From Synechococcus sp. AG-670-A05 (lineage in GTDB: Bacteria > Cyanobacteriota > Cyanobacteriia > PCC-6307 > Cyanobiaceae), in contig QCSJ01000007.1 of NCBI GenBank assembly GCA_003211535.1, forward strand, positions 1 to 43,402: a stretch of 43,402 bases of DNA, read 5' to 3'. Shown in pieces: positions 1 to 35,560 of this stretch. The position numbers and the translations under genes are program-made. How positions within the stretch are numbered: the stretch's first letter is position 1; each line of letters opens with the position of its first letter. Under the pieces are notes generated by a model. That model saw only the letters and a program-made list of their open reading frames with translations, was not told the DNA's origin and made no database searches.

Positions 1-965
1 AAGGAGGAAAGGTAATAGTTCCTCCATTTACATGGAGTTCAGACATTTCATCAGTGTATTGGATGGGATTCGAGCTTGAATTTATAGATATTAAAATGGA
101 AACTTTAGCGATAGATGGTGATCTCTTGAAATCAAAGATTAAATCTGATAAAAACATCAGGGCAGTATTCCTTACTCATGCACAAGGTATTAATGGATTA
201 ACAAAAGAAATTTATGAATGCTGCAAAGAACACAATGTAATTTTGATCGAGGATGTGTGCGAGTCCCATGGTGTTCAAGTTGATCAATTAACTAAAGCAG
301 GTGCAAAAGGAGATTTATCATGCTTCTCTTATTACTATGCCCACCATATGAGTACGATTGAGGGTGGAATGATTTGCACCAATGACGAGAAAATTTATGA
401 ATATATAAGAATGCTCAGGGGACATGGAATGTTGAGAGAAGCACGGGGTGCGCAGATTAAATTGCAGTATGAACAGCAATATCCAGATCTTAATCCGATG
501 TTTATATTCACAACACCTGGCTTTAATGTAAGAAACAACGAAATAGGTGCGATTATAGGATTATCGCAATTAAAAAGATTAGATCAGATGATTGTAAGAC
601 GCAATGAAAACTTCCAATATTTTTTGCGGAGACTGCCTAATTGGGCATTCAAAGATTTCAACCTTGAAGGCCAGAGTAATTATGCATTAAACGTAATACT
701 TAAGGAGCCTAACGCAGACCTAATGATTAAACTGGAGAAAGCATTAGAAATGAATGAAATAGAATATAGACGAGGAAGTGCAGGTGGTGGCAATCAATTA
801 AGACAACCTTACATACGGAATATGGAAAAATTTAAATACATAGATTGCAAGAAGTTTGCTCCTATCACTGATCACATTCATTTTTATGGGCTTTATCTTG
901 GAAACTATCCCGATCTTCAGATAAGCGATATCGATGAAATTTTACAGGTGATTAATAGCATCTAA
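1..965 (+). CDS. DegT/DnrJ/EryC1/StrS-fold sugar enzyme with His in place of the PLP lysine (5' partial)
   Basis: The gene enters from the left edge; the frame is open from base 3 and gives 320 residues. It has the fold-type-I sugar aminotransferase pattern: the cofactor-ring Asp region EDVCESHG (about residues 83-90), then FSYYYAHHMSTIEGG, then a GFNVRNNEIGA segment (the usual 'G.N.R..e..A' motif). In ordinary family members a lysine before the GEGG-like turn forms the Schiff base with PLP. Here that position is His (codon 342-344), followed by a second His. The same substitution is known in the PMP-dependent 3-dehydratases ColD and RfbH/E1, which remove the sugar C3 hydroxyl instead of transaminating. 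I see no [2Fe-2S] cysteine set, which favours a ColD-like over an E1-like enzyme. It is followed directly by the nucleotidyltransferase gene. The family is secure; the 3-deoxygenation role is inferred. Confidence 0.85.
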   Translation, partial: GGKVIVPPFTWSSDISSVYWMGFELEFIDIKMETLAIDGDLLKSKIKSDKNIRAVFLTHAQGINGLTKEIYECCKEHNVILIEDVCESHGVQVDQLTKAGAKGDLSCFSYYYAHHMSTIEGGMICTNDEKIYEYIRMLRGHGMLREARGAQIKLQYEQQYPDLNPMFIFTTPGFNVRNNEIGAIIGLSQLKRLDQMIVRRNENFQYFLRRLPNWAFKDFNLEGQSNYALNVILKEPNADLMIKLEKALEMNEIEYRRGSAGGGNQLRQPYIRNMEKFKYIDCKKFAPITDHIHFYGLYLGNYPDLQISDIDEILQVINSI

Positions 966-966
966 T

Positions 967-1677
967 ATGGGTCATAAATTGAACGTTATTATCCTTGCTG
1001 GTGGACAAGGATCAAGACTTAAAGGCATCCTCGGAAAAACGCCAAAAATTATGGCAAAAATTATGGATAAACCTTTTATTGAATATTTAGTAGAATGGTT
1101 AAAATCAAAATTACAGGAGATACCAATAGATATATATCTTGCGACAGGAATAGGTCATGACATTATCAATGAATACGTCAAAAAAAATGATACAAATTTA
1201 ATACTTATCCAAGAATATGAACAATTAGGTACTTTAGGAGCAGCAGCCAATTGTGTAATGCATACAGCCAAAGAAAATTCATTATATTTAGTTTTAAATG
1301 GTGACACACTTTTTGACGCAGACTTAAATATTGCCTTCAAAGTATTTTTAAAAACTCAAGAGTCACCGCTTGTAGTGGTCAAAAAAGAGCATAATAATCA
1401 ACGCTTTGGTGGTTATATTATCAAAGATAATATTTTGATAAAAGATTTAGTCAAAACAGACTATATCTCAATGGGTGCGGTTTTTACTAGAGGCATTGAC
1501 TTAGTTAGAGCAGATAAAAATGCTTCAATGCAGGAATCAATACGAATGATGGATACTCATTTCATACAGCAATTGTGCTGCAAAGCATTTATATTAGACG
1601 ATTCAACAAGATTTATAGATATTGGAGTACCCGAAAGCTATAATATTGCTCAATTATATATTCCAAAAGAGTTTTAG
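967..1677 (+). CDS. Sugar-1-phosphate nucleotidyltransferase (heptose/hexose-1-P guanylyltransferase-like)
   Basis: A 236-residue protein with the GT-A-like nucleotidyltransferase signature: LAGGQGSRL (about residues 10-18), then TPKIM with the substrate-side lysine, PFIEYL near 36-41, and the metal-binding GD at 112-113 in LNGDTLFDADL. Enzymes of this type join a sugar 1-phosphate to an NTP to give an activated NDP-sugar in the cytosol. The short length and the AGGxGxRL...PKxM...PFxEYL spacing resemble HddC, the D-glycero-alpha-D-manno-heptose-1-phosphate guanylyltransferase. A GmhB-like phosphatase gene 1.2 kb downstream fits that reading. The start ATG follows the previous stop by one base, and the stop abuts the next ATG, so this is an operon. 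The nucleotide and sugar specificity are inferred. Confidence 0.85.
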   Translation: MGHKLNVIILAGGQGSRLKGILGKTPKIMAKIMDKPFIEYLVEWLKSKLQEIPIDIYLATGIGHDIINEYVKKNDTNLILIQEYEQLGTLGAAANCVMHTAKENSLYLVLNGDTLFDADLNIAFKVFLKTQESPLVVVKKEHNNQRFGGYIIKDNILIKDLVKTDYISMGAVFTRGIDLVRADKNASMQESIRMMDTHFIQQLCCKAFILDDSTRFIDIGVPESYNIAQLYIPKEF

Positions 1678-2592
1678 ATGAGAGTAGCAGTAATTGGATC
1701 GCGTGGTTTGGTTGGAGATGCATTATGTCGCAACCTTCAAGAAGACATTATTGAAATAAATAGAGACAACTGTAATATACTTGATACCAAACATTTGAGA
1801 GACTTCCTGTACCGGGAAAAGATAGATGTCGCAATAAATTGTGCTGCTTGTGTTGGGGGTATTCATTTAAATAGAAAAAGACCATACACAATGTTTAGAT
1901 TAAATTTAGAACTTAACCAAAGTGTACTTAACGCATGTATTAGATCAGATACTAACAAATTAGTGCAATTTTGTAGTAATTGTGCTTATCCACGAGAAGC
2001 CATTCAACCATACAAAGAAATTGATTTATTTAATGGACAGTCTGCTAATACAAATCAAGGTTATGCTGCGGCAAAAATAGCTGGATTGCAGGCTGGTATA
2101 GCGGCTCATAGCGAATATGGTATTGATGTATATCATCCTATACCATGTTCATTATTTGGATATAGGGATAATTATAATATAAATAACTCACATTTCGTGG
2201 CAGCCGCGATAAGGAAAATCCATGAAGCTGTTAAATACCGAGAATCAAGTATTTTGTTTTGGGGAACAGGTAAACCATGCAGGGAAATATTATTTGCCGA
2301 TGAGCTAGCTAATGCTATAAAAAAAATATTAGAGGCCAATTTAGCGAATGAACCTGTAAATATAGCTACAGGAATTGATACTCCTATTATTAAAATAATT
2401 GAGATAATAAGTACAATCGCTGGTTACAAGGGGGAGATTAGGTGGGACAAGAGTAAGCCAGATGGTGCACTCCATAAATTACTAAACAATACTAAAATGA
2501 AAGAACTAAACTGGGAGCCTCAAAAAAACCTTGAAGAGAGCCTTAGGAAAACATTCGTACATTATCAAAAGGGGATGGATATTAGATTATAA
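1678..2592 (+). CDS. GDP-L-fucose synthase/ColC-like NAD(P)-dependent sugar epimerase-reductase
   Basis: A 304-residue extended short-chain dehydrogenase. The N-terminal dinucleotide motif is IGSRGLVG (6-13). Residues that match the GDP-L-fucose synthase (Fcl/WcaG) active site are visible: Ser100 and Cys102 in FCSNCAYP, Tyr129 and Lys133 in YAAAK, and His172 in NNSHFV. In that family Cys and His perform epimerisation at C3/C5 and the Tyr/Lys pair reduces the 4-keto group. ColC of GDP-colitose synthesis is a relative that works after ColD, so the pairing with the upstream His-for-Lys enzyme is suggestive. The ATG directly abuts the previous stop. The subfamily is well supported; the true substrate is unknown. 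Confidence 0.85.
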   Translation: MRVAVIGSRGLVGDALCRNLQEDIIEINRDNCNILDTKHLRDFLYREKIDVAINCAACVGGIHLNRKRPYTMFRLNLELNQSVLNACIRSDTNKLVQFCSNCAYPREAIQPYKEIDLFNGQSANTNQGYAAAKIAGLQAGIAAHSEYGIDVYHPIPCSLFGYRDNYNINNSHFVAAAIRKIHEAVKYRESSILFWGTGKPCREILFADELANAIKKILEANLANEPVNIATGIDTPIIKIIEIISTIAGYKGEIRWDKSKPDGALHKLLNNTKMKELNWEPQKNLEESLRKTFVHYQKGMDIRL

Positions 2593-2877
2593 AGACCATT
2601 ATTAATAGCTCGAATATCGTAGTTACTACAATCTTGTTGATAAAGAAACTTACATATGATTTTTAGAACCCACAGTTTAAAATTAAAACAATATTCTATT
2701 TTAGAGGTTAGAGACTAGGCTTAAATCACCCATCCGTACTTACCGTCATACTACTTAAAAGATTTTGCATAAAAAATCATTATACCTCAATCAATATGAG
2801 AACTATCTAGAGCATATGCATAATGTGCAATAAAATATGGCTAACATTAACTGTCGCATCAGGAACCAAGCTTGAAA

Positions 2878-3372
2878 ATGAAATGCTTTCTGGATAGAGA
2901 CGGAATTTTTAATTACGATGATGGGTATGTAGGAACAATAGAAAGATTTCGATGGTATGAAAATATATTTATAATTCTCAGTATTCTTAAAAGCAAGGGT
3001 TGTAGTTCATTTATTGTAATTACAAATCAATCCGGAATAGGCAGAGGCTACTACTCGGAGGATTCTTTTGTCAAATTATCAAAGTGGATGTGCGATGTAG
3101 TAGAACAAAAGGTAGGCATAAAACTTAAAATAGTTTACTGTCCTCACAAACCAGAAGATAACTGCAAGTGCAGAAAACCAAAGACTGGAATGTTTGAACA
3201 CTTTATTATTGATCAGACTGACATAATGATCGGAGACAAGAGTACAGATATGCTAGCCGCAAAAAAAGCCGGCATTAAGAATCGTTGGTTAATATCTACG
3301 GTAGAAACTAAATATTATTCTGAAAAGTTTGCAAGCCACGATGAATTAATACAAATGCTTGAGCTGTGGTAA
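2878..3372 (+). CDS. HAD-superfamily heptose-bisphosphate phosphatase-like (GmhB/HisB-N type)
   Basis: A 164-residue HAD phosphatase. Motif I is FLDRDG with nucleophile Asp6 and acid/base Asp8, motif II lies in VITNQSGIGRG (47-57), and motif IV is IGDKSTD (118-124). A zinc loop is present: Cys88, His90, Cys96 and Cys98, followed by RKPKTGM. This zinc loop marks the GmhB/HisB-N group, which removes a phosphate from D,D-heptose 1,7-bisphosphate or histidinol phosphate. Beside an HddC-like gene the heptose role is more likely. I chose ATG 2878 because it puts the FLDRDG motif at the usual place; a TTG two codons earlier is possible. The 285-bp gap before it is AT-rich and shows no gene; it may carry its own promoter. 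Confidence 0.85.
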   Translation: MKCFLDRDGIFNYDDGYVGTIERFRWYENIFIILSILKSKGCSSFIVITNQSGIGRGYYSEDSFVKLSKWMCDVVEQKVGIKLKIVYCPHKPEDNCKCRKPKTGMFEHFIIDQTDIMIGDKSTDMLAAKKAGIKNRWLISTVETKYYSEKFASHDELIQMLELW

Positions 3373-3395
3373 AATTATGGTGAGCTTATTCATGA

Positions 3396-3989
3396 ATGGA
3401 CAAAAAATCATTATTTGCGTTTGAAAAGAAAGTAGCTGATACTTTCAACTCGGCAAAAATTAAAGCGCCAGTCCATCTACATGGAAACAACGAAGATCAA
3501 CTTATTGAAGTATTTAAAAAAATTAAAGCTGTAGATTGGGTTTTCTCATCATGGCGTTCTCACTATCATTGCCTGTTAAAAGGTGTGCCAGAAGACATAC
3601 TAATGAATGATATTAAAAATGGCAAAAGTATTACTTTAATGTATCCAGACTATAGAGTCTATACAAGCGCGATTGTGGGTGGAATTGTACCAATTGCACT
3701 TGGAACAGCGATGGCAATAAAGAATGACAGCAAAAATGAGTCCGTATATCTTTTCATGGGTGAAATGACTAGTGAGACCGGTGCGGCCTATGAAGCCCAT
3801 AAATACGCTGTAAATCATGACTTGCCAATTACATTTATAATTGAAGACAACAAAAAATCAGTTTGTACAGATACCTATTCAACATGGAAAGTCGATGAGT
3901 TGTCGTTGAAAGGAAAACCTAAGGTGATATACTACGACTATCAACTTCCATGGCCGCATGCAGGCGCTGGAGTAAGAGTTCAATTCTGA
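3396..3989 (+). CDS. Truncated thiamine-diphosphate enzyme, PDH-E1-alpha-like (PP domain)
   Basis: 197 residues matching the 2-oxoacid dehydrogenase E1 alpha subunit. RSHYH...KGVPEDIL (about 54-69) corresponds to the E1 alpha 'RSHahaLakGvp' segment, and AIVGGIVPIALGTAMA (about 92-107) to the IVG...P...G.A.A helix. The ThDP/Mg motif is present but changed: the usual GDG is G-E-M at 122-124, followed 28 residues later by Asn152 in EDN. The spacing is exactly that of E1 alpha, with Glu replacing the metal-binding Asp. Normal E1 alpha chains are near 330 residues or more; this one stops shortly after the cofactor motif and lacks the C-terminal third. The next gene supplies the Pyr domain. It likely binds ThDP at a two-subunit interface. 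No E2/E3 genes are nearby, so a decarboxylating carboligase or lyase is more likely than a dehydrogenase complex (inference). Confidence 0.8.
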   Translation: MDKKSLFAFEKKVADTFNSAKIKAPVHLHGNNEDQLIEVFKKIKAVDWVFSSWRSHYHCLLKGVPEDILMNDIKNGKSITLMYPDYRVYTSAIVGGIVPIALGTAMAIKNDSKNESVYLFMGEMTSETGAAYEAHKYAVNHDLPITFIIEDNKKSVCTDTYSTWKVDELSLKGKPKVIYYDYQLPWPHAGAGVRVQF

Positions 3990-3998
3990 AATATTATC

Positions 3999-4535
3999 AT
4001 GTCTTATTTTGATGAACTTAAAACTGCAATGCAGTATCTTGGAGAGCAGACTGATACTATTTTTATAGGTCAAGCTGTATCAGTACCTGGTACAGCAATG
4101 TTCAATACGCTTAAAGAAGTAAATCCTAACAAGAGGATTGAACTGCCTGTATTTGAAGATACACAAATGGGAATAGCATTGGGAATGGCACTAACAGGCA
4201 AAAAAGTGATTTCTGTCTACCCAAGATGGAATTTTCTTTTGTGTGCTACCAACCAATTAGTGAACCATGTCGACAAATTTCCAATCATGAGCGAGTATAA
4301 AGTTACACCTGGGCTTATTATAAGGACAGGTGTTGGATCAGAGCGCCCACTTTTTCCTGGGCATCAACATATTGGAAATTTTAGCGATGCATTTAGACAG
4401 ATGCTTACAACTATTGAAATAATTGAACTTCAGGAGCCGGAAGATATTATTCCTTCATATCAATATGCATACAATCGATCAGATGGAAAATCCACACTTC
4501 TAGTTGAATTTGGTGACTTCTACAATGAAAAATAA
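3999..4535 (+). CDS. Truncated thiamine-diphosphate enzyme, PDH-E1-beta/transketolase Pyr-domain-like
   Basis: 178 residues corresponding to only the N-terminal Pyr domain of E1 beta/transketolase. LPVFEDTQMGIALGMALTGK (49-68) matches the E1 beta segment containing the catalytic glutamate that activates the ThDP aminopyrimidine (Glu53 here). NQLVNH and the LIIRTGVGS...HQHIGN stretch match later E1 beta landmarks. The usual C-terminal transketolase domain (about 120-150 residues) is missing. The gene begins 9 bases after the PP-domain gene and surely forms one enzyme with it. The arrangement recalls small split ThDP enzymes such as ComD/ComE. The PDH-E1-like AviB1/AviB2 pair, implicated in adding a two-carbon branch to a sugar, is another precedent (recalled). 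The substrate is unknown. Confidence 0.8.
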   Translation: MSYFDELKTAMQYLGEQTDTIFIGQAVSVPGTAMFNTLKEVNPNKRIELPVFEDTQMGIALGMALTGKKVISVYPRWNFLLCATNQLVNHVDKFPIMSEYKVTPGLIIRTGVGSERPLFPGHQHIGNFSDAFRQMLTTIEIIELQEPEDIIPSYQYAYNRSDGKSTLLVEFGDFYNEK

Positions 4536-6057
4536 AATCACTATGAATATCGATTGTCTACTTATCAACCCTGATTCTTCACTCAAAGCATATCAAGGGC
4601 TAAGTGGCAAGTTTTCCGCAATCGAGCCACCTACATGGGCACTTTTATTAGCGGAGAGTTGTAGATCAAGAGGATTTAGTGTCAGAATTCTAGACTGTTG
4701 TGCAGAACATTTAAGCCTTAAAGAATCAGTTGATCGAATCCAAAAACTGAGCCCGAGAGTCGCATTGTTTGTTGTATATGGACAAAATCCTAATGCTGGT
4801 ACAACTAGCATGATAGGAGCAACTGAATTAGCGGAAGCAGTCAAGCGTAGGATCCCTACTCAACATATAGCTTTTGTTGGATCACATGTTTCAGCAATAC
4901 CTAAAGATGTCATAGAGCTGTCGTATGTAGATACGATTCTGCTAAACGAAGGGGTGTATGCATTGCACAACCTTTTAAATTCTAACCTGAGCGATGAGCT
5001 AAGTTTAATTAAAGGAATCGCTTGGAAATCAGACACACAAATAATAGTCAACATGCCTGAAAGAATCGTTCCCCAAGAACGAATGGACATGGATCTGCCT
5101 GGATATGCATGGGATTTACTTCCATATGAAAAAGAGCCGCTTGATCTGTATCGATCGCATGTTTGGCACGGCAACTTTAACGAAAACATGAGGTCACCTT
5201 ATGCAGCAATATACACGAGTCTTGGCTGTGTTTATGGTTGTGAATTTTGTATGATAAATATAGTCAATAGAACAGATAATGGGGAAGAAATAAGCTCTGG
5301 TGATAGTAGGATTATGAGATTTTGGAGTATTGAATGGGTTTTAGATGTTCTTCAAACTTTAAATGAATTAGGTGTCAGTACTATTAGGCTTTCAGATGAA
5401 ATGTTTCTTCTAAATCACAGGTATTACGTCCCCATATGTGAAGGAATAATTGAAAGAGGATTAAAATTACACATGTGGGCTTATTCACGTGTGGATACAG
5501 TAAGAGAAGGTTTACTTGAATTAATATCAAAGGCTGGAATTAATTGGCTTGCACTTGGAATCGAGGCTGGCAGTCAGTCCGTAAGAAAAGAGATATCTAA
5601 AGGTTCTTTCAAAGATGTGAATGTCAGAGAAATCGTAGATCTTATACGGTCGTATGAAATAAATATCATTGCCAATTATATTGTTGGTTTTCCAGATGAT
5701 AACTACGCGTCAATGACATCAACACTAAATTTAGCCTTAGAATTAAATACCGAAATGATAAACGTATATCCTTGTCAAGCACTCCCTGGTTCACCACTTC
5801 ATGTCCGCGCTAAAAAAGAAAATTGGGATATTCCAACAAAATATGAAGAATACGCCTTTTTAGCATATGAGACAAAGCCACTCCCAACTAAGTACCTAAA
5901 GAATTCACAAGTATTAGCCTTTAGAGACTATTTTTGGAAAGTATATTTTACAAACCCGGCATATCTCGAGCTTGTAGAAAAGAAATTTGGAGAAAAACAA
6001 CGATTAAATGTAGAAGAGATGTCCTCCTTTAATCTCAAACGAAAACTACTTCAGTAA
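4525..6057 (+). CDS. Cobalamin-binding radical SAM protein (class B type)
   Basis: A 510-residue protein. The N-terminal part (about 1-180) looks like a B12-binding Rossmann domain: DCLLINPD at the start, PPTWALLLAESCRSRG, and a GSHVSAIPKD segment. The radical SAM domain follows, with the canonical CxxxCxxC at Cys235, Cys239 and Cys242 (bases 5227-5250). Downstream are LGIEAGSQSVRKEISKG and NYIVGFPDDN, both typical of this family. Such enzymes often methylate unreactive carbons or phosphorus using methylcobalamin, or rearrange carbon skeletons. The chosen ATG (4525) overlaps the previous gene by 11 bp and has GGTGA upstream; ATG 4543 is an alternative. The position inside a sugar cluster suggests C-methylation of a sugar (inference). 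Confidence 0.87.
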   Translation: MKNKITMNIDCLLINPDSSLKAYQGLSGKFSAIEPPTWALLLAESCRSRGFSVRILDCCAEHLSLKESVDRIQKLSPRVALFVVYGQNPNAGTTSMIGATELAEAVKRRIPTQHIAFVGSHVSAIPKDVIELSYVDTILLNEGVYALHNLLNSNLSDELSLIKGIAWKSDTQIIVNMPERIVPQERMDMDLPGYAWDLLPYEKEPLDLYRSHVWHGNFNENMRSPYAAIYTSLGCVYGCEFCMINIVNRTDNGEEISSGDSRIMRFWSIEWVLDVLQTLNELGVSTIRLSDEMFLLNHRYYVPICEGIIERGLKLHMWAYSRVDTVREGLLELISKAGINWLALGIEAGSQSVRKEISKGSFKDVNVREIVDLIRSYEINIIANYIVGFPDDNYASMTSTLNLALELNTEMINVYPCQALPGSPLHVRAKKENWDIPTKYEEYAFLAYETKPLPTKYLKNSQVLAFRDYFWKVYFTNPAYLELVEKKFGEKQRLNVEEMSSFNLKRKLLQ

Positions 6058-6099
6058 GAGCTACATGTTGTAAACTTTAAGTCTTTCAAACACAAAAAC

Positions 6100-7032
6100 A
6101 TGGCAACGATTCTCGTCACAGGTGGAGCAGGCTATATCGGTTCAATATTAATCCCAAAACTGCTCATTGATGGGCATAAAGTAATCAGTGTTGACAACCT
6201 TATGTATGAACCAACAAGTTTGCTTATTCCTGCTCTACACCCTAACTGTGAAATAATTATTGGTGATGCAAGAGATCGTGAATTGATGAAACCACTAATC
6301 GAAAAATCAGACGTAATTATCCCATTGGCTTGTCTTACAGGTGCGCCATTATGCAACAAAGATAAAAGTGCTGCCATCGGTGTAAATCGTGATGCTGTAG
6401 TTATGTGCTCCGAACTAAGCACATCTAATCAACTCATCATTTATCCCTGTACTAACAGTGGTTATGGAGTCGGTCAAGATGGAATCTATTGTGATGAAAC
6501 AACCCCACTTAATCCTATTTCTTTATATGGCAGAGTAAAGGTAGAAGCAGAAAAAGCTTTATTAGACAAAGGTAATGCTATCACATTCAGATTGGCCACA
6601 GTATTTGGGGTAAGCCCCCGACCTCGATTAGACCTTTTAGTAAATGATTTTACATATAGGGCATTTTTTGATAGAGCAGTAATTTTATTTGAAGCCGATT
6701 TCAAGCGTAACTATCTTCATATTGACGACGCAGCAGATGGTTTCCGCTTTGCTATTCAACGCCCTGAGTTAGCCGGTAATTGCTTTAATTTGGGTTACAG
6801 TGAGGCTAATCTCTCTAAACGTGAATTATGTATCTTGATCCAAAAACAACTACCAAGATTTGTATATTTAATTTCAGAAATAGGTGAAGATATTGACAAG
6901 AGAAATTATATTATCAGCAATAATAAAATTGAAGGGGAGGGATTCAAGGCCAAAAGAAGCGTGGATTTAGGGATAAAAGAACTTATTAAAGCATTGCCAC
7001 TCCTCAAAAGAAATCAATTTGCCAACATCTAA
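6100..7032 (+). CDS. NAD-dependent nucleotide-sugar epimerase/dehydratase (extended SDR)
   Basis: A 310-residue extended SDR with the coenzyme motif TGGAGYIG near the N-terminus and a catalytic Tyr-x3-Lys in LYGRVKVEAEK. The nearby YPCTNSGYG supplies the usual Ser/Thr. The substrate-binding half contains FGVSPRPRLDLLVNDF and RNYLHIDDAADG, both common in nucleotide-sugar epimerases and 4,6-dehydratases. It is the last gene of the AT-rich block; about 117 bp of AT-rich sequence separate it from the convergent thiC. It could supply the 4-keto intermediate needed by the first gene of the window, or epimerise the finished sugar; sequence alone does not decide. Confidence 0.85.
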   Translation: MATILVTGGAGYIGSILIPKLLIDGHKVISVDNLMYEPTSLLIPALHPNCEIIIGDARDRELMKPLIEKSDVIIPLACLTGAPLCNKDKSAAIGVNRDAVVMCSELSTSNQLIIYPCTNSGYGVGQDGIYCDETTPLNPISLYGRVKVEAEKALLDKGNAITFRLATVFGVSPRPRLDLLVNDFTYRAFFDRAVILFEADFKRNYLHIDDAADGFRFAIQRPELAGNCFNLGYSEANLSKRELCILIQKQLPRFVYLISEIGEDIDKRNYIISNNKIEGEGFKAKRSVDLGIKELIKALPLLKRNQFANI

Positions 7033-7149: not shown

Positions 7150-8553
7150 TCAATCAGCCTTGTCAAGCCTGAGAGATGAGAAATCGGCGGCACCCGATTT
7201 AGCAGCTAAAACCTTCTCAATACCCTCGAGATCTTTATCAGTAATTTTAGTCTGCATGGGGCAATGCTTTGGTCCACACATTGAGCAGAATTCTGCTTGC
7301 TTATAAATATCAGCAGGAAGAGTTTCATCATGATATTCCTTGGCCCTCTCCGGGTCTAACGATAATTCAAACTGCTTGTTCCAATCAAAGTTATAACGGG
7401 CACGGCTGAGTTCATCATCACGATCCCGGGCACCGGGGCGGTGACGTGCAATGTCTGCGGCATGGGCGGCAATTTTATATGCAATCAATCCTTCTCGCAC
7501 ATCCTCTGAATTCGGAAGCCCAAGGTGCTCCTTCGGAGTGACGTAACAGAGCATTGCTGTGCCATGCCACCCGGCCATCGCAGCACCGATCGCCGAAGTG
7601 ATGTGGTCGTAACCGGGAGCTATATCAGTAACTAGAGGACCCAACACATAGAAGGGCGCTTCACTACACTCCTCCATCTGCTTCTTCACGTTGAATTCAA
7701 TCTGATCGAGAGGCACGTGACCAGGTCCTTCGACCATCACCTGCACGTCATGCTTCCAGGCACGTCGTGTAAGTTCACCTAAAGTGTGAAGTTCAGCCAG
7801 CTGAGCTGCATCGGAGGCATCGTGCTGGCAGCCAGGGCGCAGTGAATCTCCCAGGGAGAAAGTGCAATCGTAACGCTTGAAGATTTCGCAAATGTCGTCA
7901 AAACGCGTGTAAAGGGGGTTTTGACGGTGGTGGAAGAGCATCCACTGGGCCAGAATGCCCCCACCTCTACTCACAATGCCAGTGATCCTACCCTTCACCT
8001 TGGGAAGGTGCTCAATCAGCAGGCCAGCGTGAATCGTTTGGTAATCAACCCCCTGCTGGCAATGCTTTTCGATGATGTGGAGAAAGTCATCCTCATCGAG
8101 CTTCTCGATCGAGCCGTGCACACTCTCCAGAGCCTGATAAACAGGCACCGTGCCGATAGGCACCGGTGAGGAACCGATTATGGCCGTACGGACCTCATCG
8201 AGGTTGACGCCACCAGTGGAAAGATCCATCACCGTATCAGCCCCGTACTTGACGGCCAGCTTCAACTTCTTCACCTCCTCGGCTGCATCCGAAGCGTTAG
8301 GCGATGCGCCGATATTGGCATTCACTTTGCACCTGCTGGCTATACCGATCGCCATCGGCTCCAGATTGGCGTGATTGATATTGGCCGGAATGACCATGCG
8401 GCCCCGGGCCACCTCCTCCATGATTAGCGATTCCGGTAGGTTCTCTCGCTTGGCCACATGGGCCATCTCCTCTGTGATGCCCCCCTGACGGGCGTAATGC
8501 ATCTGAGAGACATTCGCTTGGCCCTTGCGAGTTTCAACCCAGGTAGCGCGCAT
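7150..8553 (-). CDS. thiC: Phosphomethylpyrimidine synthase ThiC
   Basis: A 467-residue ThiC. It converts aminoimidazole ribotide into hydroxymethylpyrimidine phosphate, the pyrimidine half of thiamine, using a [4Fe-4S] cluster and S-adenosylmethionine. The C-terminal cluster motif CSMCGPKHC (Cys423, Cys426, Cys431; CX2CX4C) is intact, and long conserved stretches such as [16 protein letters not shown] and [10 protein letters not shown] are present. The length equals that of short ThiC forms without the plant/proteobacterial N-terminal extension. It starts with ATG, and a TPP riboswitch lies in its leader, so expression should fall when thiamine diphosphate is plentiful. It is convergent with the sugar cluster and divergent from a methyltransferase gene. 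Confidence 0.97.
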
Positions 8554-13904: not shown

Positions 13905-15005
13905 ATGCCGAATCAACAACCAACAGCCATCATTCTCACCCCATATCTGGGATTGCACAAGGAAGTGTCCCAGGAAATTTTAAGTGGCAGGACTTCAACC
14001 GCTTCAGATAAATTGCAGGCAAAACCACTAATTGAAAGCCTAATCAGGCTGGGATATAAAACAAGAGCTCTATCATTAAACAAAAACTTCCAATTAATTG
14101 ACTTTGAAGAGCTCCGCCATCCGGAAATCTGCTTTGTGAGCAAATTACGCAGCCATCCGACAGAAGATGAAAATTTATACGCAATGTTTCATCAGTCTTG
14201 CATCCTAAACTTAAAGCGTAATGGCACGAAAATAGCAGTTCTCTATTCGGACAATTTAGCCGGCAAGGATACACCTGATGGAGAACTCTATAAAAATGTT
14301 TTGTTTTTAAGTGACGCGATCATTTCGCCAAGCCCTATTCTGATCGATCATGCCAAGAAATGGACATCACCGAAGGCATTGACAGCAGTCATCAAGGATC
14401 CATGCCTAATTCCTGAAAGACCATTTATACATCTTTCACCGAACGACATCTGTCATGTGCTGTGGTTTGGCAACAATAGCAACATTAAATATCTCCGTTC
14501 CACTCTCTCTCCCCTGCTCGTCAACTCGCCAAAGCAGCAAAAATATCAGCTTACATTTTTAGCCACGGCTAAGGGGCTAAAAGATATTGGTTCAATTTTA
14601 TCAGAAATAAATGTCTTACCCAGCTGGAACTTCAGGTTAATCGAGTGGAAATACAACAATCAGCCGAAGCAATTGACCGATGAACTTTCTGCAGCTCACA
14701 TCACTTTTATCCCTTCAGATCCGTCCGATCCTAATAAAAGTGGTGTCTCACACAACCGTTTAACAGATTCGATTCAGTCAGGCTGCATTGCTGTCGCAAG
14801 TCCCATGAATTCATATCTGGAACTCGCCAAAGTAAGCTTGCTTGGTGACGATCTATCTCAACTGTTTAACAATGCAGTTATCGAATACAATAGACTTTGT
14901 CAAAAATATACTTCATTACGCCAGGCATGTCTAAGACCTTTTCAGCCTCAAGAAAACTACGACGCCTGGAAAAAAATTATTAGCGCAATACAACAGATGG
15001 CTTGA
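13905..15005 (+). CDS. Glycosyltransferase-like protein (GT-B fold), AT-rich
   Basis: A 366-residue protein without transmembrane segments or signal peptide. It has GT-B-like features: an N-terminal segment with LIESLIRLGYKTRALSL, ISPSPILIDHAKKW in the middle, VLWFGNNSNIKYL at the start of a second Rossmann half, and near the end FIPSDPSDPNKSGVSHNRL and AVASPMNSYLE, resembling the donor-binding region of retaining glycosyltransferases. I did not see a clear GT4 E-x7-E motif, so the family is tentative. Base composition is clearly more AT-rich than smpB and the following gene, and it begins 14 bp after smpB. It looks like a recently inserted surface-sugar gene. Confidence 0.6.
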   Translation: MPNQQPTAIILTPYLGLHKEVSQEILSGRTSTASDKLQAKPLIESLIRLGYKTRALSLNKNFQLIDFEELRHPEICFVSKLRSHPTEDENLYAMFHQSCILNLKRNGTKIAVLYSDNLAGKDTPDGELYKNVLFLSDAIISPSPILIDHAKKWTSPKALTAVIKDPCLIPERPFIHLSPNDICHVLWFGNNSNIKYLRSTLSPLLVNSPKQQKYQLTFLATAKGLKDIGSILSEINVLPSWNFRLIEWKYNNQPKQLTDELSAAHITFIPSDPSDPNKSGVSHNRLTDSIQSGCIAVASPMNSYLELAKVSLLGDDLSQLFNNAVIEYNRLCQKYTSLRQACLRPFQPQENYDAWKKIISAIQQMA

Positions 15006-32885: not shown

Positions 32886-33087
32886 CATATCGCTCAAATC
32901 TTTATCGACTATTTAGACATCCCCTAGCACTGTAATTAATATACAACCATACAGGACAAGCTTGTGGAGTGCAAAAATAAATTAACTCAGTTAACCGACT
33001 AGATACATGTTCAAAAATGCCCAAAAAGCCATAGCACACTTTAACCTCGCTATATGGTAAAATATTAAAACATTTTATGTTCTTAAC

Positions 33088-33771
33088 ATGACCTACGCTC
33101 AATCCTCAAAAGAATTGCACAAATTAAATGCGGATTACGGGAATGCAAGCGCATATAGAAATCCATCCTCAATGAAATACTACCTTAATATACCAAAATC
33201 CATTCAATCAATACTTAACTTATCATCGATAACTAGAATATTAGACTACGGCACTGGAAAAGGTGGCTTAGTCGAGGAAATTAGATCTTGTCTGCCCGAA
33301 GCAATTGATATTCAGGGGTATGACCCGGGAGTACAAGAATACTATGATCTTCCGGATGGCCAATTCGATTTAATTACATGTATTGATGTCTTGGAACATA
33401 TCGACCGAGGCTCAATATATTCAACATTTCAACAAATCAAAGACAAATCAAAGGGGTTCGTATTTTTCGCTATTGACTTAATTCCTGCTAAAAAAGAGCT
33501 GCTAGACGGCAGAAATGCTCATATCACTCTTGCACCATCAGACTGGTGGTGCCAACAACTCAAGCAACACTTTCGAATGGTCACACTCTTCGACCAAGGA
33601 TGGTTAGAAGATGGGACAATTTATCCAATTCAGCTGTTCGGGTGCGCCACTAATCATCTTCACTTCTTACCATCAATGAGCAAATTCATTGAATCGACAG
33701 GTATCGCCAGCACTAGATGGGAGTATGACCCGAAGTCACGAGGCTTTAAGATTAAAGCTCTACAGCCGTAA
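33088..33771 (+). CDS. Class I SAM-dependent methyltransferase, AT-rich
   Basis: A 227-residue protein. SAM motif I is ILDYGTGKGGL (50-60), the acidic strand-2 residue is in IQGYDPG, and LITCIDVLEHI is motif post-II. Beyond the fold no substrate clue is visible. The gene is notably AT-rich, lies between an AT-rich 200-bp leader and a long AT-rich region without genes, and does not share an operon with the core genes around it. It looks horizontally acquired, perhaps part of a former surface-sugar block. Confidence 0.8.
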   Translation: MTYAQSSKELHKLNADYGNASAYRNPSSMKYYLNIPKSIQSILNLSSITRILDYGTGKGGLVEEIRSCLPEAIDIQGYDPGVQEYYDLPDGQFDLITCIDVLEHIDRGSIYSTFQQIKDKSKGFVFFAIDLIPAKKELLDGRNAHITLAPSDWWCQQLKQHFRMVTLFDQGWLEDGTIYPIQLFGCATNHLHFLPSMSKFIESTGIASTRWEYDPKSRGFKIKALQP

Positions 33772-34543
33772 ATTGATAGATAAATCATCACAAGTCTCTA
33801 AAGCATACTTTTAGATATTTCTCGTAAAGTTAAATATATAATTCAATTGTGACAAAACTCAAATCGCTTAAGCATATTTATATACCTATAGAGCCGACTA
33901 GCGTAGAGTGCGTTAATGCGCAAATAATGTCAATTCTTAGACACCCTTCTACAAGAAAGTCATAAGTTCATCGAGACTTTTGAAGCTTAAGATCATCTTT
34001 AAAGGGTAACTTTCAATTGATATGTCTAAAGAAATCTTGCAGAAAAAGAGGACTATAATCTATCCTGTGCAGTAAATAAAAGGCCTTCCGCCAAATCACT
34101 ACTAAAAGATTGCTGTCTTAATAATACCCAATGAAGAGCAAATTAGCAAATTAATAATCCAAGCAGATATCAAATCTTATTGGAGATTCTAGCAATCAGT
34201 CGGCCCAAAGATCTAATACTTTATAAAGATTTCTTCCTAGAGCTGCCGTTTTAAGAAATTAATTGCACCGTTTCAACTCTAAATCAACTGACTTAATTAG
34301 AAAAATTTTCGAGCATAAATTGGCCATCTAAAATTGAAGGAGAATTCAGAATAAATCAACAATATTAAAATTTAAGGAGGAAAAAATCTTTTTCAAGCAA
34401 ATTTATAAAGTTAAGCTATTATGATACAAAGGTCTGGATGTACAGATAAGGCTTGAACGAATTATTTAATGTCCTAAGAAATTCGGACCAATTGAAATTG
34501 ACGGCCCGCAATTAAGCATAAACTGTTGAAGACTCGCGTTAGT
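33772..34543. other. AT-rich region without a convincing gene
   Basis: No frame on either strand codes for more than a few dozen residues. Items seen: a 38-residue reading frame from GTG 33849 to TAA 33965, with KHIYIPIEPTS at its start; a perfect AAGGAGG at 34374-34380; and AAGGAG at 34337-34342, neither followed by a proper start codon. This fits decayed surface-polysaccharide genes, but a non-coding RNA is not excluded. No tRNA or terminator was recognised. Confidence 0.6.
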
Positions 34544-35560
34544 TCAGCTGGCAACATAAGCCTCAACCTGATCGCTGACCCGGCGCAGGCCAGCCAGCCC
34601 GTCGCGCTCGAGATTGCGCACGCGATCACGACTCATGCCGAGGATGCGGCCGATACCTGTCAGGCTCATCGGATCTTCACCATCCATGCCGTAACGCATT
34701 CGTAGTACTTGCTCCTGAAGATGGGGCAACTGGCCTAGCAGGCTGCGCAGATCACCCTTCATGCAGTCCTCTTCCACATGGTCGCTAGGAAGATCACCGT
34801 CACCAGCCAGAAGTTCCAGAAGCTCCGTGTCGTCGCCATCGCCCACCTTCATCTCCAGACTCACAGGCTGCCGGGCGCGACACATTAGATCTTTAACGTC
34901 GTCTTCGGGCAAATCAACGAAATCGGCAAGCTCGCTGACAGTAGGGGTACGACCCAACTCCTGGCTAAGCTCCCGTTGTCCTTTCTTGAGCTTGTTCAAC
35001 ATCTCAGTGATGTGAATTGGCAGGCGGATGGTGCGGCTCTTCTCCGCGATTGCACGGGTGATGCCCTGACGGATCCACCAATAGGCATAGGTAGAAAACT
35101 TGTAACCACGGGTGGGATCGAATTTCTCTACACCCCGGACAAGTCCAATTGTTCCTTCCTGAATCAGGTCCAGGAGCTCCATATTGCGCTTGGTGTACTT
35201 CTTTGCAACACTCACCACCAGGCGCAGGTTGGCCGCCACCATTCTCTCCTTGGCGCGACGGCCATGTTGAAGCTTGCGCTTCAGCTGAAGCGAGGTCAGG
35301 CCAGAAGCCTTGGCCAGCTTGTCGGCTGAAGGCTTGTCGCCATCACGACTTTCAAGTTCAGTCTGAAGCGCCTCGATGTCCATCAGATCCTGAACCTGAC
35401 GGCCAAGGGTGATCTCCTGTTCGTGGGTCAACAAAGGCACACGACCGATGTCTCGCAGGTAAGAGCGCACTAGATCCACGTCGACACTGACACTTCGGGC
35501 CGCAGTTGCAGGTTTTGAAGCAGTCGCAGGTTTTGAAGCAGTCGCAGCTGTAGGAGCCAT
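34544..35560 (-). CDS. Sigma-70 family RNA polymerase sigma factor (group 2, cyanobacterial)
   Basis: 338 residues. Region 1.2 (DLVRSYLRDIGRVPLLT), region 2 (NLRLVVSVAKKYTKRNMELL, DLIQEGTIGLVRGVEKFDP, YAYWWIRQGITRAI), region 3 (RLPIHITEMLNKLKKGQREL) and region 4 (GIGRILGMSRDRVRNLERDG) are all present. The long acidic region 1.1 of the housekeeping factor is missing, so this is a group-2 (non-essential) sigma. The N-terminal 22 residues are Ala/Thr/Lys/Pro-rich and contain a duplicated ASKPAT unit. It lies downstream of mgtE on the same strand with a 52-bp gap. Confidence 0.93.
   Translation of the reverse strand: MAPTAATASKPATASKPATAARSVSVDVDLVRSYLRDIGRVPLLTHEQEITLGRQVQDLMDIEALQTELESRDGDKPSADKLAKASGLTSLQLKRKLQHGRRAKERMVAANLRLVVSVAKKYTKRNMELLDLIQEGTIGLVRGVEKFDPTRGYKFSTYAYWWIRQGITRAIAEKSRTIRLPIHITEMLNKLKKGQRELSQELGRTPTVSELADFVDLPEDDVKDLMCRARQPVSLEMKVGDGDDTELLELLAGDGDLPSDHVEEDCMKGDLRSLLGQLPHLQEQVLRMRYGMDGEDPMSLTGIGRILGMSRDRVRNLERDGLAGLRRVSDQVEAYVAS
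35509..35544. repeat. Tandem 18-bp repeat (2 copies) in the sigma gene 5' end
   Basis: The unit CAGGTTTTGAAGCAGTCG occurs twice in direct succession (35509-35526 and 35527-35544). It encodes two copies of ASKPAT in the flexible N-terminus of the sigma factor. Being a multiple of three, copy-number change would not shift the frame. Confidence 0.85.

Follow-up and report, generated by a model that had tools for sequence, protein, structure and literature searches.

A stretch of 43,402 nucleotides from Synechococcus sp. AG-670-A05 (contig QCSJ01000007.1, positions 1 to 43,402; hereafter the window) begins with a block of eight plus-strand open reading frames (ORFs), g1 to g8, which occupy positions 3-7032. 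We propose, with a probability of roughly 0.6, that this block makes a guanosine diphosphate (GDP)-activated 3-deoxy, C4-branched heptose; the figure leaves aside the role of g7, a radical S-adenosylmethionine (SAM) protein. The proposal builds on the gene families, on intact catalytic residues, on a neighbourhood conserved among relatives and on the interchangeability of thiamine diphosphate (ThDP) enzyme and kinase types within it. Pfam and NCBIfam scans of the eight proteins assign families in agreement with those read from the letters in the original prediction. None of the eight reaches an NCBIfam equivalog cut-off, and they are therefore relatives rather than certified members of the families named below (PMP, pyridoxamine 5'-phosphate; SDR, short-chain dehydrogenase/reductase).

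3..965, plus strand: g1, PMP-type (His-for-Lys) sugar 3-dehydratase, ColD-like, with its 5' end cut and no start codon (PF01041, 158.9 bits)
967..1677, plus strand: g2, HddC-like sugar-1-phosphate nucleotidyltransferase (best NCBIfam model HddC, 98.9 bits, below the cut-off of 300)
1678..2592, plus strand: g3, Fcl/ColC-like epimerase/reductase (GDPFucSynFcl, 263.8 bits, below the cut-off of 500; PDB 1e6u, E = 7e-58)
2872..3372, plus strand: g4, GmhB-like HAD phosphatase (heptose 1,7-bisphosphate 7-phosphatase; NCBIfam GmhB-type models, below their cut-offs)
3396..3989, plus strand: g5, mini E1-alpha of 197 residues, putative ThDP-binding half of a split carboligase (E1_dh, 52.9 bits)
3999..4535, plus strand: g6, mini E1-beta of 178 residues, putative pyrimidine-binding half (Transket_pyr, 23.8 bits, cut-off 27; pyruvate dehydrogenase E1-beta by profile)
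4525..6057, plus strand: g7, radical SAM protein with an N-terminal B12-binding-type domain (start ATG 4525 chosen by eye; start TTG 4504 given by the ORF tool)
6100..7032, plus strand: g8, SDR close to PDB entry 6vo6 (E = 2.6e-99 over residues 4-309)

Proposed pathway

We infer the order of the steps, the substrates of g2, g3 and g5-g7, and the product along the following lines. Sedoheptulose-7-phosphate would be isomerised by a GmhA-type enzyme and then phosphorylated by a kinase of HddA or HldE type, after which g4 would dephosphorylate the intermediate and g2 would guanylylate it to GDP-D-glycero-D-manno-heptose. The C4 of this nucleotide sugar would be oxidised by g8, and g1 would strip the C3 hydroxyl through PMP chemistry to give GDP-3-deoxy-4-keto-heptose. 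The g5/g6 mini-E1 pair would attach to the C4 ketone an acyl unit of two carbons, with pyruvate as its probable source, g3 would epimerise and/or reduce, and g7 would perform one radical edit. A C4-dehydrogenase in place of a 4,6-dehydratase would keep the 6,7-diol for g7, which would explain this choice of enzyme.

Sugar-core enzymes

The full-length similarity of g8 to 6vo6 stands clearly above that to other SDRs, the next-best PDB chain having E = 7e-16, so that 6vo6 is by far the nearest solved SDR. We take 6vo6 to be Campylobacter jejuni Cj1427, the GDP-D-glycero-D-manno-heptose C4-dehydrogenase; the title of the record is only 'putative sugar-nucleotide epimerase/dehydratease', and a literature search with the PDB codes 6VO6 and 6VO8 returned nothing tying 6vo6 to the name Cj1427. 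By this resemblance g8, to which the original prediction gave no name, looks like a GDP-heptose C4-dehydrogenase rather than a 4,6-dehydratase, and the parallel with colitose drawn in the original prediction breaks down at the 4-keto step. Cj1427 is reported to hold a tightly bound NADH, to recycle it with alpha-ketoglutarate and to act on GDP-heptose; combined in vitro with the pyridoxal 5'-phosphate (PLP)-type C3-dehydratase of serotype HS:5, it gave GDP-D-glycero-3-deoxy-4-keto-heptose (PMC10680097).

The g1 protein aligns with ColD (PDB 2gms, E = 5e-36), and the catalytic lysine of the family is replaced by histidine, as in PMP-dependent sugar 3-dehydratases of the ColD/RfbH type. In the g1/ColD family this column holds His in 137 of 152 sequences, Lys in 14 and a gap in one. 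Judged from this signature, g1 looks like a 3-dehydratase that would remove the C3 hydroxyl. In g3 the S100, Y129, K133 triad and the C102/H172 epimerase pair are intact, as in Fcl/ColC enzymes; in GDP-fucose synthase, the Ser-Tyr-Lys and Cys/His residues are described as serving reduction and epimerisation (PMC7949155). With HddC as its best model, g2 is probably a guanylyltransferase. The three GmhB models score g4 at 139.1, 125.3 and 121.1 bits (cut-offs 178, 149.6 and 250), and g4 exceeds the cut-offs of two general HAD subfamily-domain models. We place GDP-3-deoxy-4-keto-heptose in the pathway as an intermediate because of the likeness of g8 to 6vo6, the His-type g1 and the HddC-like and GmhB-like genes.

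Conserved neighbourhood in viral and cellular relatives

Relatives were collected in three ways. A g7 search of 201 genomes of the family gave three at E = 1e-60 or better, namely the window, G040 and G057. Viral loci came from a radical SAM alignment scan (the best 80 of 121), to which a ThDP-alpha scan added 8, and cellular loci from a scan of 84,980 species genomes (the best 80 of at least 451). After leaving out duplicates (L003, L007-L009, L132, L186) and two loci in which no radical SAM ORF was picked (L159, L179), 77 of the 80 cellular loci were kept. Counts refer to the 96 loci in which each flank of the radical SAM gene extends for 6 kb or more (58 viral, 38 cellular); the other 61 of 157 have less than 6 kb on a side. 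IMG/VR contigs were taken as viral, with hallmark genes read by eye in L012/L013 and L299; among the cellular loci, too, a number of contigs from single cells or metagenomes could be of viral origin.

In 94 of the 96 loci a ThDP carboligase is encoded no more than 10 kb from the radical SAM gene (57/58 viral, 37/38 cellular; the exceptions are L085 and L125). The genes of L095, L111 and L114 were detected by tblastn, as ORF picking misses genes in GC-rich contigs, and the count for L041 rests on a 30-residue fragment of the acetolactate synthase (ALS) type at the locus edge. A 3-dehydratase is found near the radical SAM gene in 81 loci (49/58 viral, 32/38 cellular), a Cj1427-like C4-dehydrogenase in 74 (44/58 and 30/38), and the radical SAM gene, carboligase, 3-dehydratase and C4-dehydrogenase occur together in 68 (40/58 and 28/38). 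When near copies are thinned at 80% identity, the 61 remaining loci hold ThDP genes in 59 cases (29/30 viral, 30/31 cellular), 3-dehydratases in 48, C4-dehydrogenases in 46 and all four in 41 (20 viral, 21 cellular). Among Cj1427-anchored viral loci (80 among the matches listed, 58 of at least 13 kb), all 31 with a radical SAM gene also have a 3-dehydratase.

Because it recurs in so many loci, we regard the gene set as more than a chance assembly. The neighbourhood search for clusters retaining all the pieces, which the original prediction had proposed, is thus positive, and the idea of a 3-deoxygenating, carbon-branching nucleotide-sugar pathway kept as a unit gains support from it; the statement that such parts are rarely seen together does not hold, since they are routinely together in relatives. 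A cassette unique to the window is ruled out by the other loci. As a control, we used loci anchored on a glycosyltransferase family that also occurs in these neighbourhoods (80 among the matches listed, 42 of at least 13 kb): the radical SAM gene occurs in 0 of the 80, and we reject grouping by pure chance on this basis.

Cellular relatives include Prochlorococcus marinus MIT 9107, TMED198, Chlorobiaceae, Nitrospira, Pseudomonas, Omnitrophota and many Pelagibacteraceae. Prochlorococcus MIT 9107 (L106) has both the radical SAM gene and mini-ThDP genes. In TMED198 (L107) the order g4-g5-g6-g7-g8 is kept, with identities of 55, 71, 73, 70 and 77%, respectively; the contig ends within its g4. The G057 contig (also IMG/VR L084, the same contig as L012) resembles, by eye, a T4-type cyanophage and carries a radical SAM gene with PanB-like, ALS-type ThDP, HldE-type kinase, Cj1427-like SDR and His-type DegT genes. 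A tblastn search of 50,697 annotated phages with the radical SAM protein gave no match at E = 1e-20.

Heptose-activation genes are part of the same neighbourhood. A heptose-kinase-like gene is found near the radical SAM gene in 75 of the 96 loci (43/58 viral, 32/38 cellular), never of both types. We extended this comparison to viral loci under three anchors, keeping those of at least 13 kb, a filter that dropped 38/80 control, 22/80 Cj1427-anchored and 9/80 viral radical SAM loci. The 171 that remain have an HddA-like kinase only (45), an HldE-like kinase only (49), both (0) or neither (77). The Fisher p-value for this exclusion, 1.6e-8, is optimistic owing to near copies and two contigs counted under two anchors (L092/L303 and L067/L357). 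In cellular relatives, HddA is the best NCBIfam model of a GHMP kinase of Pseudomonas gingeri and HddC that of a nucleotidyltransferase of Nitrospira, both below the cut-offs.

Swappable carboligases

The mini-E1 pair carries the ThDP residues of E1 enzymes. In 96 relatives of the mini-alpha, the Gly and Asn of the G-D-x...N motif are invariant, and the second position is Asp in 80, Glu in 14 (including G-E-M of the window) and Gly in 2; the catalytic Glu of the mini-beta (Glu53) is present in 98 of 98. The g6 protein matches Transket_pyr alone, without the transketolase_C domain of E1-beta, and represents a shortened form. Four architectures occupy the carboligase slot across the loci. Two are E1 pairs, either mini or full-length, the third is a split transketolase and the fourth an ALS/YerE-like enzyme. 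Exactly one type is present in 88 of the 96 loci, two or three in 6 and none in 2. The full-length E1 pair was recognised by reading L299, and six Cj1427-anchored loci without a ThDP match (L310, L313, L331, L333, L341, L363) have L299-like spacing.

The ThDP type was mapped on a quick radical SAM tree (95 of 153 sequences, 15 without a single ThDP label; LG+G4, SH-like approximate likelihood-ratio support). It switches at least 20 times, compared with a shuffled mean of 28.8, and in all 200 shuffles the labels cluster less than on the tree itself. Well-supported branches alone require 10 changes for the mini pair, 9 for the transketolase, 3 for the ALS type and 4 for the full-length E1. A 2025 review of ThDP enzymes that form tertiary alcohols distinguishes three classes that branch sugars, namely YerE-like decarboxylases, the alpha-keto acid dehydrogenase type, which adds C2 branches, and a split transketolase proposed for miharamycin; the architectures of the slot correspond to these classes (PMC12247030). 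Its main text contains none of the terms heptose, radical, GDP and phage.

The mini-ThDP pair is also found without the radical SAM gene. In L096, L097, L101 and L102 it is flanked by an SDR on one side and an RmlD/Fcl-like reductase on the other, in clusters that also hold a His-type dehydratase. The SDRs of L096, L101 and L102 are nearest to the thymidine diphosphate (dTDP)-glucose 4,6-dehydratase (296-302 bits, cut-off 365), and the dehydratase of L096 is above the RfbH cut-off (452.7 versus 423). By analogy, this context looks like yersiniose-like logic for the mini pair. L098 has the dehydratase, the mini pair and the reductase, without the dTDP-glucose 4,6-dehydratase-like SDR. A mini-E1 search of 386 genomes of the phylum gave 194 at E = 1e-20 or better; aside from the window, the matches listed are at 6e-31 or weaker and come from frames of 313-688 residues, unlike the mini form of 197.

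Related forms occur elsewhere. A ThDP-alpha search against the 50,697 annotated phages returned 8 records, including S-SM2 and P-TIM68. In both, mini E1-alpha and E1-beta are joined in one protein of about 400 residues that carries the annotation 'transketolase central region' (L104, 15974-17182; L105, 15983-17191); its gene adjoins a zinc alcohol dehydrogenase and phosphoheptose isomerase, kinase and nucleotidyltransferase genes, without this radical SAM gene. In a genome of the same family (L187, G034:C1 near 172288), a Cj1427-like SDR (173 bits) is followed directly by a fused E1-type protein of 685 residues. Six loci on five contigs, all with ALS-type genes, contain a PanB-like ketopantoate hydroxymethyltransferase (e.g. 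the phage loci L012, 17672-18493, and L081, 7183-8160). ErwE is reported to favour longer, hydroxy-functionalised donors such as 4-hydroxy-2-oxobutanoate (PMC12247030), and the PanB-like enzyme could supply hydroxylated 2-oxo acids of this kind.

The radical SAM protein

Counted from ATG 4525, g7 overlaps g6 by 11 bases. Its CxxxCxxC motif, typical of the radical SAM superfamily, is present in all 157 relatives. Among the matches listed, the closest by both fold and profile is AprD4, a radical SAM diol dehydratase acting on an aminosugar; identity is 17%, the NCBIfam AprD4 score of 61.8 bits lies below the cut-off of 500, so the resemblance is one of fold only, and partner and substrate differ. 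By analogy with AprD4 we lean towards diol dehydration at C6/C7 as the role of g7, ahead of C-methylation or epimerisation.

The original prediction had raised B12-dependent methyl transfer as one option, and a cobalamin-dependent C-methyltransferase acting on the sugar, with the rest of the pathway as proposed here, would overlap with our reading. We consider this role possible, with the odds clearly against it, because the nearest fold and profile belong to a diol dehydratase of an aminoglycoside sugar and because each of three B12 markers, the MetH B12 domain, methylmalonyl-CoA mutase and CobS, was found in 0 of 23 mostly partial Pelagibacteraceae carrier genomes (23 of the 26 Pelagibacter(aceae) loci of the cellular scan; these three markers only). 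The B12-binding family is matched in all 23, mostly in frames of 500-690 residues, presumably the radical SAM proteins, along with weak matches of about 360 residues. In L041 (6939-9863; near copies in L042-L044) the radical SAM ORF has 974 residues, the radical SAM domain therefore being fused to something else.

A more specific version of our proposal, which we put forward tentatively and consider rather doubtful as a whole, is a modular pathway of phages and aquatic bacteria. C4 oxidation of GDP-heptose, 3-deoxygenation and an acyl branch set by one of four swappable carboligases would be completed by a cobalamin-independent radical SAM diol dehydratase at C6-C7, giving 3,6- or 3,7-dideoxy-4-C-branched heptoses through which hosts as well as phages would remodel cell surface or virion.

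Alternative readings

Transketolases make sedoheptulose-7-phosphate. The GDP-3-deoxy-heptose route could thus stand while the ThDP and radical SAM enzymes serve a second product encoded in the same islands, for example through the supply of that or another precursor, and g3 would then reduce C4 to give a linear 3-deoxy-heptose. The intact Fcl reductase/epimerase residues of g3 agree with this, as does the production in vitro of linear GDP-3-deoxy-heptoses with C4-reductases (PMC10680097). We nevertheless find it unlikely: the slot also holds E1-type and ALS-type enzymes, which are not expected to yield sedoheptulose-7-phosphate, the types are swapped repeatedly, the slot classes match known or proposed sugar-branching carboligases, and the mini-ThDP pair also appears in a second dideoxy-sugar-like context.

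Less probable still is that the sugar is a hexose, with g1 and g3 acting on GDP-4-keto-6-deoxy-mannose as in colitose and g2, g4 and g8 serving another sugar. The nearest solved proteins of g1 and g3 are indeed ColD and Fcl. However, g8, the likely maker of the 4-keto group, is far closest to 6vo6 and such a gene is kept in 74 of the 96 loci, heptose-kinase-like genes accompany the radical SAM gene in 75, and no GDP-mannose 4,6-dehydratase equivalog was found by Pfam and NCBIfam among the block proteins. Between the hexose and heptose left by the original prediction we favour heptose, because of the likeness of g8 to 6vo6 and the heptose-kinase-like, HddC-like and GmhB-like genes of relatives. 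A coincidental island, in which a hypervariable region has gathered sugar genes with no relation to one another, would suit the thiC-side insertion site in the genus and the mixed content of islands. It is very improbable, given that the set comes back in viral and cellular loci from widely separated lineages and that 0 of 80 glycosyltransferase-anchored loci hold the radical SAM gene.

Several points weigh against the GDP-activated branched heptose that we prefer. The scores of g2, g3 and g4 are all under their equivalog cut-offs, and HddA was not found in the genome of the window (83% complete), a result which, with no positive control, carries little weight. Many phages pair an HldE-type kinase with a cytidylyltransferase-like gene, and the nucleotide there may therefore not be GDP. 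The ThDP step would use up the C4 ketone, so that a C4-reductase such as g3 is not obviously needed. A 3-dehydratase match is missing from 15 of the 96 loci and a C4-dehydrogenase match from 22, and divergent relatives are unsampled since only the 80 best matches were taken from each set (121 viral and at least 451 cellular relatives). Control loci also hold ThDP genes (13/42) and 3-dehydratase-like genes (18/42); their ThDP genes occur in 10 of 18 loci with a 3-dehydratase versus 3 of 24 without (p = 0.006). Finally, 12 of the 58 Cj1427-anchored viral loci have a ThDP gene without a 3-dehydratase or radical SAM match, and the carboligase therefore has no strict need for 3-deoxygenation.

Comparison with known systems

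The C. jejuni capsular GDP-heptose modification shares with the block and its relatives the activation genes (GmhA/HddA/GmhB/HddC), a Cj1427-like C4-dehydrogenase, a PMP/PLP C3-dehydratase and an Fcl-like reductase; C3/C5-epimerases and C4-reductases are also reported for it. It differs in that its natural 3-deoxygenation comes after the action of a 4,6-dehydratase, Cj1427 having been combined with a C3-dehydratase in vitro, and no ThDP carboligase or radical SAM enzyme is described in the parts of that literature available to us. In yersiniose A and erwiniose biosynthesis (YerE, ErwE), a ThDP enzyme is likewise reported to join an acyl unit to a 3-deoxy-4-keto nucleotide sugar. There, however, the acceptor is a cytidine diphosphate (CDP)-hexose and the enzyme is of the decarboxylase type, whereas the block has a mini-E1 pair with a radical SAM protein and a predicted GDP-heptose acceptor.

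E1-alpha/E1-beta-type proteins are described as adding a C2 branch to a keto sugar in actinobacterial antibiotics (aldgamycin, kibdelomycin and, as a proposal, everninomicin). We liken them to g5/g6 by class description only; in the window the two proteins are short, with 197 and 178 residues, and their setting is an aquatic surface-glycan cluster. Colitose-type GDP-3,6-dideoxy sugars are made with a His-type 3-dehydratase and an Fcl-like epimerase/reductase (ColD/ColC), and the ColD-type enzymes of Escherichia coli O55 and Yersinia pseudotuberculosis IVA are reported to use GDP-6-deoxy-4-keto-mannose. To our knowledge, colitose systems have no carboligase or radical SAM enzyme.

A search of the open-access literature for this gene set or pathway found no description among the papers listed. 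A pelagimyophage paper places radical SAM cassettes in a host-recognition cluster and rfaE among lipopolysaccharide (LPS) genes, with no pathway given in the part available to us (PMC7029224). Branched deoxy nucleotide sugars are already known; what we rate as new is the predicted GDP-heptose base together with the conserved radical SAM enzyme. If correct, the proposal would place branched deoxy-heptose chemistry in Pelagibacteraceae, marine picocyanobacteria, Omnitrophota, Nitrospira and many aquatic phages (some T4-like by eye), and a heptose pathway in marine Synechococcus. It would provide predicted functions for the radical SAM family, the mini-E1 proteins and the phage 'transketolase central region' genes, and a natural home for the Cj1427 and C3-dehydratase pairing known in vitro. 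The exchange of carboligase types would suggest a simple rule for branch diversification in host-phage surface competition. The LPS of Synechococcus WH8102 and CC9311 is reported to be without heptose, and that of some other cyanobacteria, e.g. Spirulina, to contain it (PMC4515613); because of the former, the branched sugar may rather sit in an O-antigen or exopolysaccharide of this lineage.

Genomic setting

The block most likely represents the right-hand part of a surface-glycan island. The source assembly comprises 2.0 Mb in 142 contigs and is 83% complete, and position 1 of the window is base 1 of contig C7, so that sequence to the left of the block is absent. Since the window begins at the contig start, g1 is 5'-truncated and genes upstream of it are unseen. 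Genes g3 and g4 are set apart by a gap of about 280 bases. GC content is 0.32-0.39 inside the block versus 0.47-0.66 at 7-14 kb, where it rises from 0.47. The block is followed by a core gene:

7150..8553, minus strand: thiC, core gene flanking the island (ThiC equivalog, 712.7 bits, cut-off 410)

In seven genomes of the same genus, the region 3' of thiC starts directly with a transketolase-like ORF (by eye) in five, with two small extra genes in one and with at least 14 kb of AT-rich DNA in one. Because of these differing contents, we consider thiC the border of an insertion site within the genus. A chimeric contig as the cause of the GC step is countered, on assembled sequences rather than reads, by the AT-rich island on the same side of thiC in this relative (L382, G162), at least 14 kb long; a DJ-1/PfpI-like gene in it shares 37% identity with a gene of the phage operon L299. 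Contig C65 of the source assembly carries GmhA-like (103 bits) and HldE-like (190.8 bits) genes, both below the cut-offs, which, judging by these family matches, could supply the first pathway steps.

Among conserved genes of other loci, a protein of about 135 residues with no Pfam match (L050, 5085-5489, and relatives) occurs in 41 of 94 mostly viral clustered loci, all 41 of them viral. Outside the block, a 366-residue ORF without a Pfam or NCBIfam match lies in a patch of GC 0.41 (13905-15005), and a second AT-rich patch (33001-35000, GC 0.38-0.44) is situated within the GC-rich part of the contig.

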